Source: Succinivibrio sp.
GTDB lineage: Bacteria; Pseudomonadota; Gammaproteobacteria; Enterobacterales; Succinivibrionaceae
Assembly (NCBI GenBank): GCA_024693025.1
Contig: JAILLS010000068.1
Span: 1 to 64,000, forward strand
Direction of reading: 5' to 3'
Length of the DNA stretch: 64,000 nucleotides
The notes under the pieces are model-generated. The model was given only the letters and a program-made list of their open reading frames with translations. It ran no database searches and was not told the origin of the DNA. Shown here piece after piece: positions 41,346 through 51,845 of this stretch; position 1 is the stretch's first letter; every line of letters starts with the position of its first letter. The position numbers and the translations under genes are program-made.

Positions 41346-43284
41346 ACTTTGCAGAGTAGGTACAACACACTTCACTTAGGTTCCATTTTTTTAAACAATC
41401 AATTAAATAGCATATTTGGTGATATAATGTAGGTATCATATAGATGTACCTATATTAAGATTTAATCTATGAGTAAAATTGCTCCTTTACCTAAGGTTTA
41501 TTGCTGTAAATCAAAGAACAGAACCTATATTCGTACCTATAAGAACACTCGAGTAAAAGGCAAAACCTATCCGGTTAAGACTGAGATCCGCAATATTGCT
41601 GAGATCGCCAATGGTGACGGTGTGGGCAGACTCATTTTCAGAGAAGACTTTCTAAAAGAAAATCCTAAGTTTATCGACCGTCCGATAGTCAGAGTATTTG
41701 ATGAAAAGTCAAATAAGTACCTGTTTAGATATGCCAATATTCATGATGAAAAGATTGCTGAATTTTCAGAACATCAGAAGGTCTCAGGCGTAAAGTCAGT
41801 TGGCTTTTACTACGTCCTAAAAGAACAGTTACATGCCGATCCGCTGGTAAAAACTCTGCAGTCAGTCTTTCCTGACTGTTGGGAGAAACTGCTGTCCCTG
41901 GGGATGTTCTGTGCCGACAGCGGAGATTTCAGAGCAGATCATTACCCCCGATATGTTCAGGAACACAGGCTGCCGTGTGATGAGGAGTTAAGCTCAAGTC
42001 AGATAACCAGGCTCTTTCAGAGCGTTACAGAGACAGAGGTTTTAAACTTCTTTTCAGAATATACAGCGAACCTGTATGAGAGCAAAACGCTTTCAAGACG
42101 CAGATTCTGGGCCTTAGACTCAACCTCCATCTCCACCTACTCAAGATATCTAGATGCCAGATATGGACACTCTAAACAGGAAGAGAACCTGCCGCAGGTT
42201 AACGTCCTGATGCTCACAGATGAGCGCAGTCATAGACCCCTGTTCTATGAAAAGTTCAATGGGTCAATTCCTGATGTTTCAACTGTAGCGGCAACCTTTA
42301 ATCTGCTTCTGCATCTGGATACCAGAGCTTTTGTGGCAGTCATGGACAGAGGCTACTACAGTAAATCCAACCTTGTAGAAATCCTGTCTACTGGCTTTCA
42401 CTTTGTGGTCTGTGTGCCGATTAGGAAGGTTGGTGAGTTTGATGAGGTGATAGAGAATGCGCTCAGAGCCTTTATCAGCGGCAGCTGTTATGACAGCAGC
42501 GTTGGTCAGAATATCTATACCGAGGCACAGACCATAGAGGTTAAAGATAAACAGACTAAAAAAATGCATAAACATAAAGTTTATGTGCATGTACTTCATT
42601 CTCCTGAAGCAGCAGGAGCACAGACTGAACTCCTGCTAAAAAGGCGCAGCGATGTACTCAAGATGCTTGAGGACGGGAAGGAACTGGACGGCTCTAATCT
42701 CGATTTTGCCCGAGAATATATTGTGAAAAAGGATGATGGCAGCTTTGAGTTTAATAATGCAGCCTTTCAGAATGCCAATAACCATGCCGGCGTGTTTGTC
42801 ATCCTCTCTGATGCTATTGCGGAAGGTAAAACCGCCTATCTGGCCTATAGGGACAGAGAGAGCGTAGAAGACTGTTTTAGAGACTTAAAAGTTAAGATGA
42901 ACTGCAATAGGTTTGGTGTCTCCACTGAGCAGGCACTCACCGGCAAATGCTTTGTAGAGTTTCTGGCGCTGTCGATAAGGATGCTTATGCAGTATAGAAT
43001 TGAGAACTGTAAAAACAATGGTACTCAGCCGCCATATAACTCGTTTAAGAAAATTATCGCAGAGTTGAATGGAGTTAAGGAGATAGAGTTTACCTCAGGC
43101 TTTGTATCAGTAAAGATGGTCTCTAAGGTACAGCAGGAATGCCTTAAGCTGTTCAAGGCCAGGGTTCCAGCAGACAGATATGACAATGAGCTTGCTTATG
43201 CCAACCGGCTAAAACAGGCTGGAAAGCCACATTAAAAGAAACTCAAAGGGCAAAATGCGGAGTAGGTACAACTTGCTGCAAAGT
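41346..43284 (+). mobile_element. IS4/IS1634-like insertion sequence (approximate ends)
   Basis: Transposase ORF bracketed by ACTTTGCAG (41346-41354) and inverted CTGCAAAGT (43276-43284), plus direct GC(A/G)GAGTAGGTACAAC copies at 41351-41366 and 43257-43272. Confidence 0.6.
41469..43235 (+). CDS. IS4/IS1634-like DDE transposase
   Basis: 588 aa; ALDSTSIS, VMDRGYYSKSN, YRDRESVEDCFRDLK matching DDE/Y2R3E-type motifs. Confidence 0.88.
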   Translation: MSKIAPLPKVYCCKSKNRTYIRTYKNTRVKGKTYPVKTEIRNIAEIANGDGVGRLIFREDFLKENPKFIDRPIVRVFDEKSNKYLFRYANIHDEKIAEFSEHQKVSGVKSVGFYYVLKEQLHADPLVKTLQSVFPDCWEKLLSLGMFCADSGDFRADHYPRYVQEHRLPCDEELSSSQITRLFQSVTETEVLNFFSEYTANLYESKTLSRRRFWALDSTSISTYSRYLDARYGHSKQEENLPQVNVLMLTDERSHRPLFYEKFNGSIPDVSTVAATFNLLLHLDTRAFVAVMDRGYYSKSNLVEILSTGFHFVVCVPIRKVGEFDEVIENALRAFISGSCYDSSVGQNIYTEAQTIEVKDKQTKKMHKHKVYVHVLHSPEAAGAQTELLLKRRSDVLKMLEDGKELDGSNLDFAREYIVKKDDGSFEFNNAAFQNANNHAGVFVILSDAIAEGKTAYLAYRDRESVEDCFRDLKVKMNCNRFGVSTEQALTGKCFVEFLALSIRMLMQYRIENCKNNGTQPPYNSFKKIIAELNGVKEIEFTSGFVSVKMVSKVQQECLKLFKARVPADRYDNELAYANRLKQAGKPH

Positions 43285-43308
43285 GCAGGGGTTAAACTTG
43301 GGGATAAG

Positions 43309-43385
43309 TGGCGCACTTGGAGAGATTCGAACTCCCGACCGACCGGTTCGTAGCCGATTGCTCTATCCAGCTGAGCTACAAGTGC
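43309..43385 (-). tRNA. tRNA-Arg(ACG)
   Basis: GCACTTG/CAAGTGC acceptor stem, TAGCTCAGCTGGATAGAGC D-arm, loop CTACGAA, encoded CCA. Confidence 0.95.
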
Positions 43386-43395
43386 GTGTCAAAGA

Positions 43396-43480
43396 TGGTG
43401 CGAAAGAAGGGACTCGAACCCTTACGCCTTGCGGTACTAGCACCTGAAGCTAGCGCGTCTACCAATTCCGCCACTTTCGC
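43396..43480 (-). tRNA. tRNA-Leu(CAG)
   Basis: GCGAAAG/CTTTCGC acceptor, long variable arm, loop TTCAGGT, encoded CCA; 85 nt. Confidence 0.95.
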
Positions 43481-43483
43481 ATG

Positions 43484-43560
43484 TGGTGATCCCGATGAGA
43501 GTCGAACTCATGACCACCGGCTTCGGAAACCGATACTCTATCCAACTGAGCTACGGGATC
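43484..43560 (-). tRNA. tRNA-Arg(CCG)
   Basis: GATCCCG/CGGGATC acceptor, loop TTCCGAA, encoded CCA. Confidence 0.93.
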
Positions 43561-43658
43561 ATGATTGAGCCAAATCTCAAAGATTCTGTGCGCTTATTAT
43601 ACACAACAAGATGGAAGTTGCAAGAAAAAATCATTAAAATTAATTAAGGTATGAAAAT

Positions 43659-44396
43659 ATGATTGATTTAAAGCAAGCATTTCGTGGAATTAGGGCTCTT
43701 TACGGAGAGTCTGGTTTTGATTCTCTACAGCGCTCACATGTCATGGTAGTGGGGCTTGGGGGCGTTGGCTCCTGGCTTGCTGAGGCTTTGTGCCGCAGCG
43801 CTGTAGGTGAATTGAGTCTGATTGATTTTGACAATATTGAGCTTTCCAATTTAAACCGGCAGCTTCACACCACCTGTGAAAGCTTAGGCAGGGTAAAAGT
43901 TGAAGAATTAGCACAAAGATTCAAACTTATTAATCCTGAGATCAAATTAAATCTTTATAATGAAAAGATTACGCAGGATAATTTACGGGATATTCTTCAG
44001 ACCTGTCCGCAGTATGTGGCCGAGGCGATCGATGACCTTGAGGTTAAACCTGCGTTAATCGACTATTTATATAAGGCTAAGAAGACCTTTATCACCTTAG
44101 GCGGAGCAGGCGGCAGAATGGATCCTGGTGCACTTAGTCTAGGTGATCTGGCGTCTGCGCATGGAGATGCATTACTTAGCCGAGTTCGCAGTATTTTACG
44201 CAAGGAATACCATTATCCTGCCGGAGGGGTTAAGATGCATATAATGTGCACCTATTCGTGCGAAAAGCCCGTATATTCATCTAAAGAAGGCTATCAGTCA
44301 GGAGATCTTCCCGCCTTTGGGGCGGCGATGCCTGTGACGGCCACTGCTGGATTAATGGCGGCATCCTGGATCATAAGTCAGATAGTTAAAGCCTAG
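43659..44396 (+). CDS. tcdA: tRNA threonylcarbamoyladenosine dehydratase (ThiF/E1-like)
   Basis: 245 aa; VVGLGGVGSWLAEALCRSAVGELSLIDFDNIELSNLNRQLH. Confidence 0.92.
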   Translation: MIDLKQAFRGIRALYGESGFDSLQRSHVMVVGLGGVGSWLAEALCRSAVGELSLIDFDNIELSNLNRQLHTTCESLGRVKVEELAQRFKLINPEIKLNLYNEKITQDNLRDILQTCPQYVAEAIDDLEVKPALIDYLYKAKKTFITLGGAGGRMDPGALSLGDLASAHGDALLSRVRSILRKEYHYPAGGVKMHIMCTYSCEKPVYSSKEGYQSGDLPAFGAAMPVTATAGLMAASWIISQIVKA

Positions 44397-44455: not shown

Positions 44456-46357
44456 ATGAGCACCATGATTGAAAGTGAATTTGAAAAGGTTAAGGAATAC
44501 CTCAGGCATAAATTACCAGACTATTTGCATAACAAAGGGATAAACCCGAATGCCAAGTTTGCCTGTCTTAATCCTGAGCATCATGAGAATCTGCCTTCCA
44601 TGAGCTATAACCCGCAGGACTGCACCGTCAAATGCTTTAGCTGTCAGGCCAGCTATGATATTTTTGATCTAATCGGCATAGATTATGGTTTTTCTGACTT
44701 TAAACCTTGTTTTATAAAGGCTCATGAGCTGTTTATCGGTCCGGTGCCGCAGGTATTCAATGAACTTCTGAGTCAGGAAGACAGTGCCACGGAGTACGAT
44801 AACAGCAGCTATATCCATAATCATTATGCTAAAGAAGTGCCAGAGTTTGAAATAGCTCAGGATTTTACTCCTCAGCCCAGTGCTCAGAGCTATCCTGCGC
44901 GCGAGAATGGCAATGCAGGCTTTTCCTTTGTACCAAATCCTGCCAACAATGCGCCTAATTCCTACAGCGGCAGTTCGAACAGTTATTCTCATCCGCGCCA
45001 GTCAGGTGTGGTGTTTGGCGGTGAAAACTTCAATTTTGTGGCTCCCTCCCGCAATAATCAGCGTCTCAACCTGAACAACGGCTTCACAGGTACAGGTGAG
45101 CATAGTGCCTATGAGGGACCGCGCCCTGAGGAAAACCGGCCCAATTTCAGTGAATATTTTAAGAATTGCAGCAGCCAGCTGAATAAGACTGACTATTATG
45201 CCTTACGCGGGATCAGCCAAGAGGTAGTTGAGCGCTTCCATCTCGGCTATGACGATCATTTTATCGCAGGGGTGGATCAGATGGGGGTACAGCAGCTCTG
45301 GAGAGCAGCTATCGTACCGTTATCAGAATATTCCTATCTGGTGAGAAATACCGATCGGAATGCGCAGGATCGTATGCGCAAGAAAGGTCAGTTTGAAATT
45401 TTCAATCGCGAGGCTCTCAATCATAACGGGATCGTCTTTGTAACCGAAGGGGAGTTTGACGCTTTAAGTCTTGAGACTTTAGGCTATCGGGCGATCTCTA
45501 TAGGCGGAGCTGCTAATGCGCGGCGCCTGCTGGAAATCATTAAAGAACAGTATCATGGGGTTGAAGAGCGCTGCTTCTATCTCTGTCTTGACAATGATGA
45601 GCAGGGACAGGAAGCTGAAAAGGTGATAGCGACAGGGCTATATCAGTACCGGATTGCCTACAAGCGTCTCAATCTGGCCTTCCCTTATAAGGATATCAAC
45701 GAAGCGCTGGTGAAAAACAAGGATGGCCTTGCCTATAAGCTTACTCATCTTGAGCAGATGCTCAGCTATAAACTGGGTAGTCTGACCGAGCCTAAGAGAT
45801 CGCTGAAGCTCTCTAAGTGGGAAGATTTCAATCGCCTGATGTCTGGTGAAGCTGCGCTCTATACGATCTGCGGCAGACCTAATGTACTCAGGCATCTGCT
45901 GTCAAGACTGATTACCGAACGTATGGGTAGTGTGGTCTATGCCGGTCAGGTCAATCAGTGGCAATACATTTCAAATCTCGTGGAAAGACCACAGGGCGCG
46001 GAATATACGCAGGGTTATTTTACTGCGCAGTTCCTGGAAGTGAATAGTTCTGACATTATCGGTGATGTGGATCGGGCCTTAAATGCCTTAAGACTTAGAG
46101 GGCGCGGTAATTTTGTCACCTATGTGGATTTATCAGGCAAATCACTGGAAAACTGTCTTGAATATGTGGAGCAGCTGGGTAGACTCAGCGAACAGGCCGG
46201 TCTGCCGATTGTGGCTATGTGCAATCAGGAGCCGAGTGAATACGTGGAAGCCGTTGCTCTGCAGAACCTTGAGCTAGCCTTTAATGATAAGGGAGATCTG
46301 GTCTTCTATACCGTAGATGATCAGGGCAAGCCATTTAAATTTTATCGCTATCAATAA
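44456..46357 (+). CDS. Phage-type DNA primase-like protein (CHC2-like Zn finger + TOPRIM) with degenerate helicase-like C-terminus
   Basis: 633 aa; CLNPEHHENLPSMSYNPQDCTVKCFSCQASYDIFDLIGIDYG; VFVTEGEFDALSLETLGYRAISIGG…CLDNDEQGQEA; no GxxxxGK[ST] in the C-terminal half. Confidence 0.75.
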   Translation: MSTMIESEFEKVKEYLRHKLPDYLHNKGINPNAKFACLNPEHHENLPSMSYNPQDCTVKCFSCQASYDIFDLIGIDYGFSDFKPCFIKAHELFIGPVPQVFNELLSQEDSATEYDNSSYIHNHYAKEVPEFEIAQDFTPQPSAQSYPARENGNAGFSFVPNPANNAPNSYSGSSNSYSHPRQSGVVFGGENFNFVAPSRNNQRLNLNNGFTGTGEHSAYEGPRPEENRPNFSEYFKNCSSQLNKTDYYALRGISQEVVERFHLGYDDHFIAGVDQMGVQQLWRAAIVPLSEYSYLVRNTDRNAQDRMRKKGQFEIFNREALNHNGIVFVTEGEFDALSLETLGYRAISIGGAANARRLLEIIKEQYHGVEERCFYLCLDNDEQGQEAEKVIATGLYQYRIAYKRLNLAFPYKDINEALVKNKDGLAYKLTHLEQMLSYKLGSLTEPKRSLKLSKWEDFNRLMSGEAALYTICGRPNVLRHLLSRLITERMGSVVYAGQVNQWQYISNLVERPQGAEYTQGYFTAQFLEVNSSDIIGDVDRALNALRLRGRGNFVTYVDLSGKSLENCLEYVEQLGRLSEQAGLPIVAMCNQEPSEYVEAVALQNLELAFNDKGDLVFYTVDDQGKPFKFYRYQ

Positions 46358-46371
46358 GTTAGAGTATTGGC

Positions 46372-48414
46372 GTGAAACTTAATGCAGCTCAGCAGCAGGC
46401 CGTAGAAGCCGTCAGTGGCCCTTGCCTGGTCCTGGCCGGAGCAGGCTCGGGTAAAACCAGAGTTATTACCGCAAAGATTGATTATCTGATCTCGGTACAG
46501 CATCTTGATCCGGCGCGTATCTGCGCAGTAACCTTTACGAATAAGGCCGCGGCCGAAATGAGCGAGCGCGTGGCAGATCTGGTGGGCAAGGAGTGCGCCA
46601 AGCAGATCCGTATTTCTACCTTCCATTCTCTGGGCTTAGATATACTCAAACGCGAGCATCGCTGTCTGGGGCTAGGCCGCAATTTCTCCTTATTTAATGA
46701 ATCAGATTCAAGAAAGATTGTGGGTGATATTCTGCGTGAGGAATTGCCGACTCTGCTCACGGCGGGCTCAGAATATGCTGATATTGACAGCTTTACGCAG
46801 AAAATTGCCGCTTTTAAATCCCAGCTGTTAAAGCCTGATGAGATTGCCGACGCGAAGCTTGCTGAAGTCTATGCGCGCTATGAAACCTATCTGCATTCCT
46901 GCAATGCTCTGGATTTTGAAGATTTAATTTTTAAAACCACCCTGCTGTTATCTGAGAATCAGGAGGTTGCCAAACGCTGGCTGCCCTGGTTTCAGTATGT
47001 GCTGGTGGATGAGTATCAGGACACCAATGATACCCAGTACAGTCTGCTCAAGCTCCTGACTTCGGTGTGTCAGAGATTTACCGTAGTCGGGGATGATGAT
47101 CAGTCTATCTATGCGTGGCGCGGCGCCAGTCCTCAGAATATTGAAAAGCTGGCTGAAGACTATCCTGATCTGGTGGTCATTAAGCTTGAGGAGAATTATC
47201 GCTGCACCCAGCATATTCTTAATTGCGCCAACCAGCTGATTAGTCATAACAGTCATCTATATAACAAGACGTTATATACAAAACAGGCCGAAGGCGCCAA
47301 AATCGGCGTGTGGGAGTGCAGCGATGAACAGGATGAATGCAGGATGGTGGTTGCGGATATTATGGCCAAGCATCAGCAGCGCCATAATGCCTATTCGGAT
47401 TATGCGGTGCTTTACCGCAGCAACGCGCAGTCACGTAATTTTGAGCGCGAATTTCATGCCGCACGCATTCCCATCAAGATTTCAGGCGGTACCAGCTTCT
47501 TTGAATTACAGGAAGTTAAGGATATGCTCGCGTGGAGCCGGGTGATCTGCAATCCTCATGATAATGTGGCACTGCTCAGGATCATCAATGTGCCCAGACG
47601 CGGGATCGGTACAGAACTGCTGAATCTGCTGTCAGAATCATCCAAATTAACCGGTCAGTCTCTCTATGCAACTGCTTTAGATAAGAGTGTGGTAGCCAGT
47701 CTTACCAGCACCCAGAAGTCATCTTTAGGCGAGTTTCTAAGACTGGTCGTACAGCTGCGCAAAATGCTGGTGGATTATAAGGACAGGGAGCTTGCCCGGG
47801 ATCTCATTGGTCTCATCGGCTATGAACGTTATCTTATCGCCAGTCAACCCAACAAGCCTGAGCTCAAAAATGCCAAGCTGAACAATGCCAGGGTGTTTAT
47901 GAGCTGGATTGAAGATCTGATTGAAGGTAAGAAGGACGGGCTGGAGCTGAGTTTTGAAGAAGCGGTAGAGAAGCTTTATCTGCGTGAATTTCTGGAAAGA
48001 CAGAATAAGCAGGGGGAAACGGATGCAGTACAGCTGTTAACCCTGCATGCTGCCAAAGGTCTTGAATTCCCTTATGTCTATTTAGTCGGGGTGGAGGAAG
48101 ATCTCCTGCCGCATCGAAATTCCCAGCAAAGTCCGCAGGGAGAAGCAGAAGAGCGCAGACTGTGCTATGTCGGGATTACGAGGGCTCAGCAGGAACTCAA
48201 CCTGAGCTGGTGTAAAAAAAGAGGTATAGGTGAACGTCAGAAGGACAGCCGTAAAAGTCGCTTTTTAAATGAACTGCCCGAGGCCGATTTAGAACTGCAT
48301 CGTACCGATGAGCCTTTATCTGCAGAACAGCAGCAGTCTGCACAGGACTCGATGGCCATGCTGCGTGATTTTTTAAGTGAGCAGCTTGAGCGCACCAGGC
48401 ATCATGCTGAATAA
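46372..48414 (+). CDS. rep: ATP-dependent DNA helicase Rep (UvrD/Rep superfamily 1)
   Basis: 680 aa; GTG start; VLAGAGSGKTRVIT, TFTNKAAAEMSERV, VDEYQDTNDTQY, GDDDQSIYAWRGA. Confidence 0.93.
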   Translation: MKLNAAQQQAVEAVSGPCLVLAGAGSGKTRVITAKIDYLISVQHLDPARICAVTFTNKAAAEMSERVADLVGKECAKQIRISTFHSLGLDILKREHRCLGLGRNFSLFNESDSRKIVGDILREELPTLLTAGSEYADIDSFTQKIAAFKSQLLKPDEIADAKLAEVYARYETYLHSCNALDFEDLIFKTTLLLSENQEVAKRWLPWFQYVLVDEYQDTNDTQYSLLKLLTSVCQRFTVVGDDDQSIYAWRGASPQNIEKLAEDYPDLVVIKLEENYRCTQHILNCANQLISHNSHLYNKTLYTKQAEGAKIGVWECSDEQDECRMVVADIMAKHQQRHNAYSDYAVLYRSNAQSRNFEREFHAARIPIKISGGTSFFELQEVKDMLAWSRVICNPHDNVALLRIINVPRRGIGTELLNLLSESSKLTGQSLYATALDKSVVASLTSTQKSSLGEFLRLVVQLRKMLVDYKDRELARDLIGLIGYERYLIASQPNKPELKNAKLNNARVFMSWIEDLIEGKKDGLELSFEEAVEKLYLREFLERQNKQGETDAVQLLTLHAAKGLEFPYVYLVGVEEDLLPHRNSQQSPQGEAEERRLCYVGITRAQQELNLSWCKKRGIGERQKDSRKSRFLNELPEADLELHRTDEPLSAEQQQSAQDSMAMLRDFLSEQLERTRHHAE

Positions 48415-50693: not shown

Positions 50694-51845
50694 ATGGCGG
50701 ATTTTATTGTAGATGAGAGTCGTTTTATTATTGATGACGGTGAGCTTGATGAATGGTTTGTGCCGCGCGGGTTTGAACTTCCCGACGGCCTGATTATAGA
50801 TGAGAAGCTCGATGAGGCTGATAGCTGGCAGCTGTATGTCTCAGATAATGCAGCATGCTATATTCTGGCCTGCAAAACCGAACTTGCGGCCCAATGGGTG
50901 GAACGCGGTTATCTTAAAGCAAGTCAGCTGTATCATCTTGTTTTGGAGAATGCTGATTATGAATTGCTTATATCTCCTTGTTCGTTAAGACTTTTACGTA
51001 TGACGCAGGTTAGATTTAAAGGCTCACTGCGCTATGCCTTAAGTGTCTTTGCTGCTCTCTGGCACCTGCGCAGTCTGGATACTGAGGTTAATCTGCGGGA
51101 CGCTCTGTATGTCGAAAAACTTGGGATTTTGCTGCCTACATTCAGTTTAGTGCCAAAGATTACCGATCGGGCACTCTATGAGAATGCCTTCCGTGAAGAT
51201 AAGGATCCTGAAAACCTGACGGTGCCGAGTACCTCAGGCAATGGTGGTCTGTCATTCTTTACGGTCAAGAAGATTCTTGCAGAACATGGAGTTACTCCTC
51301 CTGAGGGCGCGCTGTGGCTTGAACAGGGTGAGCCTTTGGATGACTTTATGGAAGTGAGCAAGAGCGGTGCCTATATTACAGGACCGTTGGTCGTACAGAA
51401 GCATTACCAGATTTATGATACCAATGCCGGCGTTTATGTCCTGCTTATGGATAAGCTGTGGTCAGAAGCTCTGCTGCAGACGAATCTGCTCAATAAAATC
51501 AGTTTAAATAACATAAGTATAGACCATCAGTCCTTTGCGGTTCTGACTTTTGATAAACGCACTGCTCTAGAGCCGCTGAATGATCGCTTCTTCGGTTTAA
51601 CCGAGGTCGGTGCAGTTAAGCTTGCGCAGAGCATCAGACGCTTTAGAGCCCAGCTTGAGAAAGCCGATCTTAAAGATGCGCTGTACATTGAGTGCTTAGG
51701 TGCTTTGCTGCCAACCACCTTTAGCAGTGAAACTATTGATGATGTGATGGTGTTCCGCAAGATCTTAAGAGAGGGGCCGTTTGCCTTAGCCCCGCTGCTT
51801 GATGACGTCAAGGTTGACTGCATGATGATAGCAACCACCAAATAG
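50694..51845 (+). CDS. Hypothetical protein with internal duplication
   Basis: 383 aa; LRDALYVEKLGILLPTFS and LKDALYIECLGALLPTTFS repeat about 200 aa apart; no family recognised. Confidence 0.7.
   Translation: MADFIVDESRFIIDDGELDEWFVPRGFELPDGLIIDEKLDEADSWQLYVSDNAACYILACKTELAAQWVERGYLKASQLYHLVLENADYELLISPCSLRLLRMTQVRFKGSLRYALSVFAALWHLRSLDTEVNLRDALYVEKLGILLPTFSLVPKITDRALYENAFREDKDPENLTVPSTSGNGGLSFFTVKKILAEHGVTPPEGALWLEQGEPLDDFMEVSKSGAYITGPLVVQKHYQIYDTNAGVYVLLMDKLWSEALLQTNLLNKISLNNISIDHQSFAVLTFDKRTALEPLNDRFFGLTEVGAVKLAQSIRRFRAQLEKADLKDALYIECLGALLPTTFSSETIDDVMVFRKILREGPFALAPLLDDVKVDCMMIATTK

Follow-up and report, generated by a model that had tools for sequence, protein, structure and literature searches.

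The window analysed here (the whole stretch of 64,000 nucleotides from contig JAILLS010000068.1 of a Succinivibrio sp., GenBank assembly GCA_024693025.1) carries, between tcdA and a rep-like helicase gene, an open reading frame for a protein derived from a primase-helicase, which lies on the strand, at the coordinates and with the length given in the original prediction. The gene, its neighbours and the parts of its product are as follows:

43659..44396, + strand: tcdA (ThiF family), upstream neighbour; Pfam ThiF, E = 2e-35
44456..46357, + strand: open reading frame of the primase-helicase-derived protein, 633 aa
44564..44644, + strand: CHC2-type zinc finger, with C37, H42/H43, C60 and C63 present
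44789..45127, + strand: low-complexity linker, aa 112–224, predicted to be disordered (pLDDT about 30)
45149..45760, + strand: DnaG-like RNA polymerase core (N-terminal subdomain plus TOPRIM)
45437..45709, + strand: Toprim_2, aa 328–418; Pfam E = 1e-12
45446..45448, + strand: TOPRIM catalytic Glu331 (EGEFD)
45590..45598, + strand: TOPRIM Asp379 and Asp381 (DND)
45818..46354, + strand: C-terminal pseudo-RecA/DnaB-like domain, aa 455–633, predicted from an AlphaFold2 model (pLDDT 89, pTM 0.85) and fold matches
45857..45916, + strand: collapsed P-loop site LYTICGRPNVLRHLLSRLIT, aligned with the relatives’ LYIIGAISSLGKTTFALQ
46127..46129, + strand: remnant Walker B-position Asp558 (YVDLS), invariant in A1 and lost in the g6/g7/g8/g11 clade
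46372..48414, + strand: rep-like UvrD/REP helicase gene, downstream neighbour; Pfam UvrD-helicase, E = 6e-83

The gap to rep measures 14 nt rather than the 15 nt first reported. Family members begin at the equivalent of Met4 (44465); an RBS-like GGAAGG is better suited to the first ATG. A DDE_Tnp_1 transposase gene, part of an IS element (41469–43235), sits just upstream of a tRNA cluster and tcdA, and a forward-strand open reading frame within that cluster (43308–43568) is spurious, as it reads the opposite strand of three tRNA genes (Arg-acg, Leu-cag and Arg-ccg). On the other side of rep, a 383-aa protein encoded at 50694–51845 has two similar-looking halves and gave no Pfam match.

The zinc finger and the intact TOPRIM that had been read from the sequence are both there, with every tested TOPRIM/primase catalytic residue present in the window copy. 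Two further Pfam models of DnaG type matched below threshold (Zn_ribbon_DnaG, 0.002; DNAG_N, 0.04). The linker, first placed at about aa 130–220, nearly coincides with the stretch predicted to be disordered; across the family, its length ranges from very short in genera g6, g7, g8 and g11 to about 900 aa in g2. Long low-complexity expansions occur in g2 proteins more widely (loci L037–L041, L046, L047, L054, L055 and others), with the primase-helicase-derived protein reaching 1400–1800 aa, TcdA 335–487 aa, and open frames of up to 1015 aa for DnaG and 1034 aa for PriA.

The whole window protein was modelled with AlphaFold2 using 22 family sequences, giving a pLDDT of 79, well-ordered N-terminal, core and C-terminal parts and the one long disordered stretch at aa 112–224. 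Foldseek searches of the PDB with this model returned a chain of the T7 gp4 replisome at the top (E = 4.8e-15), with Twinkle (3e-12) and T7 gp4 chains next and, after these, RNA polymerase domains of DnaG and members of the RecA family; whole-model TM-scores were low (about 0.24), as expected where domains are connected through a disordered linker. When the C-terminal 204 residues were folded alone (the model listed above), the isolated domain matched RecA, Rad51/RadA-family and Twinkle folds, with TMq of 0.5–0.6. The RecA/DnaB-like fold on which the original prediction had staked its reading of the C-terminus is thus seen in the model and in its structural matches. At the sequence level, a Pfam scan of this domain of about 200 aa gave no match, DnaB_C included, and hhalign aligned its profile only weakly with the relatives’ DnaB domains (probability 49.5, E = 1.7e-4), so that the case for homology to DnaB depends chiefly on the predicted fold and on the order of the domains. 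In a class-level sample of 274 genomes, the pseudo-RecA domain was found only in the window’s own genome.

The motor site itself is eroded. The relatives’ Walker A position, typically LYIIGAISSLGKTTFALQ, is occupied in the window protein by LYTICGRPNVLRHLLSRLI, with ICGRPNVLRHLL standing where relatives have GAISSLGKT; the site is about four residues shorter than in the relatives, and in the model strand 468–473 passes into helix 475–487 through a one-residue turn, with the P-loop absent. No GxxxxGK[ST] was found at the motor site in any of the 50 family members, window protein included, which extends to the whole family the earlier remark that this C-terminus has no GK[ST]. The possibility that the long g2 forms carry a P-loop elsewhere was rejected (their GK[ST] triplets are scattered and lie outside the motor site), as was a recent loss limited to the window species, since the P-loop is missing in all members. 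The KNRNG arginine-finger motif found near the C-terminus of relatives is likewise absent from the window protein. Judged from alignment and predicted structure, the RecA motor is a pseudo-ATPase in all members seen, with the fold retained and both the P-loop and the arginine-finger motif gone.

The best matches outside the family are primase-helicases of plasmids, phages and other mobile elements, many of them from rumen and gut bacteria; most have a Walker A motif, and four representatives combine DnaB_C (E = 2e-28 to 3e-33) with Toprim and CHC2 domains. In a tree of the polymerase/TOPRIM core, the Succinivibrionaceae proteins form one clade (support 99/87) nested among these mobile primase-helicases and apart from DnaG, on whose side the window genome’s own DnaG falls. 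This tree agrees with the phage or mobile-element type first suggested for the N-terminus and rejects duplication of the host dnaG as the origin. The evidence supports a chromosomally domesticated descendant of a plasmid- or phage-type primase-helicase, a real and unusual family of which our literature searches found no description.

The gene is present in 49 of the 56 other Succinivibrionaceae genomes searched—named carriers include Succinivibrio dextrinosolvens, S. faecicola and Succinatimonas hippei—and in none of 40 genomes from the same order outside the family. The seven genomes that lack it are the five of genus g5 and the two of g10. At 40 of the 50 loci, tcdA, the gene and rep follow one another on one strand; six loci are truncated by contig ends, one (G030) has tcdA inverted, and three, all from genus g8, retain the gene beside tcdA with rep at another place, which in G025 is about 1.5 Mb off. 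The distance between the gene and rep reaches about 1.8 kb in g2. The description of a gene fixed between tcdA and rep accordingly stands at the level of the family but not for g8, G030 or the gene-less g5 and g10. In g5, tcdA directly abuts rep, forming an empty site, and in g10 the two lie on separate contigs; in the three order-mates examined, about 4–7 kb of unrelated genes separate them.

Distances between copies of the gene track those of the tcdA+rep tree (Spearman 0.84; none of 200 permutations was as high), which supports vertical inheritance. Synteny and this congruence reject a prophage gene, in keeping with the non-prophage location originally proposed, and in place of the variable context that prophage primases would have offered the family shows a single chromosomal copy, passed on vertically and kept in synteny. 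The gene’s establishment between tcdA and rep within Succinivibrionaceae, and its vertical inheritance since, are supported; the tree, which is not resolved at its base, allows either ancestral absence or loss in g5 and g10.

The fate of the primase site divides the family in two. In 25 members (the window copy and 24 others) E331, G332, D379, D381, R251, R297, R306 and K412 are invariant and K309 is present in 24; in the other 25 of the 50, belonging to g2, g4, the g6/g7/g8/g11 clade and G017, the TOPRIM catalytic residues are gone, and in these dead lineages they decay together in a near all-or-nothing pattern. Mapped onto the tcdA+rep tree under Dollo parsimony, which assumes that the site cannot be regained, this amounts to four independent losses, three of them solid and one, in G017, less certain: the G017 assembly reaches 59% completeness, and its copy of the gene, which lacks its N-terminus and has an in-frame TAG, is cut at a contig end. 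The zinc finger is kept in most dead lineages and is missing from six long g2 forms; a separately encoded upstream finger in these was sought with tblastn and rejected, none being found.

Loss of the site has not released the protein from constraint. Pairwise Nei-Gojobori dN/dS ran at 0.05–0.15 in dead g8 and g11, with about 0.06–0.10 over the whole gene, and at 0.19–0.25 over the whole gene in dead g2, where the pseudo-RecA domain was the most constrained part (0.06, against 0.12–0.18 for the TOPRIM core of the same proteins); several dS values were saturated, so that those ratios are rough and some pairs unusable. Among live S. dextrinosolvens pairs, the gene’s dN/dS of 0.08 exceeded the values for Rep (0.02) and TcdA (0.04), and dN was 0.11 against 0.02–0.05 for the two neighbours, the protein evolving faster than either. 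Purifying selection clearly persists in dead lineages (dN/dS about 0.05–0.25), including those in which both active sites are gone.

We therefore favour, at a probability of about 0.5, the view that a domesticated primase-helicase is maintained here neither for helicase activity nor, across the family, for primase activity, and would have a scaffold or docking role. With the motor dead in all members, the primer-synthesis site lost four times and selection persisting, the protein probably works not as an enzyme but as a scaffold that binds DNA or the replisome: four branches lost the primase site under purifying selection, so the function common to all is most likely non-catalytic, and since the enzymatic residues are dispensable, it is most likely binding. 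The idea of a domesticated primase or TOPRIM nuclease thus holds for domestication but not for primase or nuclease as the shared function, given the repeated loss of the site in relatives.

The host background bears on what such a scaffold might do. The window genome carries separate, canonical DnaG and PriA, and PriA is present in the family, so its loss was rejected as a reason for the gene. PriC and PriB, in contrast to PriA, are essentially undetected: the single Pfam model used for PriC (PF07445), a small and fast-evolving protein, gave one weak match among 42 family genomes (G000–G041) and none in the window protein or anywhere in the window’s genome, and all family matches to gamma-type PriB fell below the cut-off, with 15 order-mates above it. 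This correlation with the gene holds at the family level only and takes in the gene-less genera; as PriC and PriB are also undetected in g5 and g10, their absence does not track the gene. One gene-less g10 locus (L230; G027:C52:20000-26000) has, on the + strand from 1215, an open frame of 1254 aa with two tandem DnaG copies, the first with an intact CHC2 finger and degenerate TOPRIM motifs and the second canonical.

In E. coli, PriC is an interaction partner of Rep and helps to reload DnaB (PMC12122000), which makes a restart adaptor beside rep an attractive guess; the parallel with PriC would be functional only, the two proteins being unrelated in sequence. On this model, the zinc finger and polymerase/TOPRIM fold would bind single-stranded DNA, as expected by analogy with human Twinkle, whose inactive primase half does so (PMC9860392), and the pseudo-RecA domain would dock onto a RecA-type ring or a neighbouring replication protein, either DnaB or Rep. 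Where forks stall or restart, the protein would then serve as an adaptor, PriC and PriB being essentially undetected in the family, and in lineages with an intact TOPRIM site it could prime as well. Restart or repair next to Rep may be its role; coupling to Rep is not obligatory, given that g5 and g10 manage without the gene and that rep of g8 has been relocated. A stricter version, which we hold only tentatively, would have the captured mobile primase-helicase turned into a pseudo-primase and pseudo-helicase, a purely structural adaptor joining single-stranded DNA, DnaB and Rep in place of the undetected PriC and PriB; a selected job of that kind, if true, would explain four losses of enzymatic residues without loss of the gene.

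The strongest competitor, possible though doubtful as an account of the whole family, is an accessory primase: an active second primase at restart sites or gaps, using its dead RecA domain as a docking module, with the dead-TOPRIM lineages as secondary simplifications. The complete active site suggests that the window copy may still make primers, and half of the family, the window species included, keeps that site, so that priming could be the main job there. The same residues have stayed intact in 24 further members and erode jointly in the rest, which argues that activity was maintained for long periods, and the conserved zinc finger and the fold matches to DnaG RNA polymerase domains are also in its favour. 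Against it, at least three well-sampled clades have lost the site yet kept the gene, the slot and purifying selection, which makes priming dispensable for whatever keeps the gene.

We consider it improbable that the protein is a decoy against mobile elements, a captured subunit with a dead motor that would poison the hexamers of incoming plasmids or phages with related primase-helicases. Its nearest outside relatives are indeed such enzymes, many of them from rumen and gut, loss of the P-loop is universal and the protein evolves faster than its neighbours; yet it occurs as one core-like copy at a fixed housekeeping position with no defence-island context, its low dN/dS is not that of diversifying selection, and PADLOC gave only TOPRIM-region similarity to DRT models and no match to a full defence profile. 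Nothing links the protein to the defence role that had been suggested. Least credible by far is a fossil mobile-element gene retained in the operon by chance, for although the motor motifs are lost, the primase motifs are lost in places and G017 has its in-frame TAG and missing N-terminus, frames are open in nearly all of about 50 genomes, the slot is fixed and dN/dS stays low even in dead lineages.

The family differs from each of the known systems closest to it. T7 gp4-type proteins share its order of zinc finger, DnaG-like/TOPRIM core and RecA fold and are its best structural match, and plasmid and phage Zn-TOPRIM-DnaB_C proteins (for example that of S. thermophilus pSMQ308) fall in one clade with the window protein; unlike the T7 gp4 type, the latter has no P-loop, KNRNG motif or DnaB_C match, has a long disordered linker and is chromosomal and vertically inherited. 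Bacterial DnaG has in common with it the zinc ribbon and the RPD/TOPRIM core with its catalytic residues, but the window protein scores 56.3 bits against TIGR01391 (cut-off 283.6) and its C-terminus matches RecA folds. Metazoan Twinkle, also a primase-helicase that became domesticated, has likewise lost one of its catalytic halves and kept the fold: animal Twinkle has lost primase activity (PMC9860392, PMC3610141), yet the N-terminal domain of the human protein binds DNA and stabilises oligomers (PMC9860392). The family is thus a variant of the T7 gp4/Twinkle kind and not, enzymatically, a member of it.

Succinivibrionaceae show the situation of Twinkle in natural mirror image: in this host-captured primase-helicase it is the motor, not the primase, that no member has kept alive, and the primase site is still complete in some members and lost from others. 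With orthologues of both sorts occupying the same syntenic position, roles beyond catalysis can readily be compared, and the gene may reveal how stalled forks are restarted in a family where PriC and PriB are not detectable.
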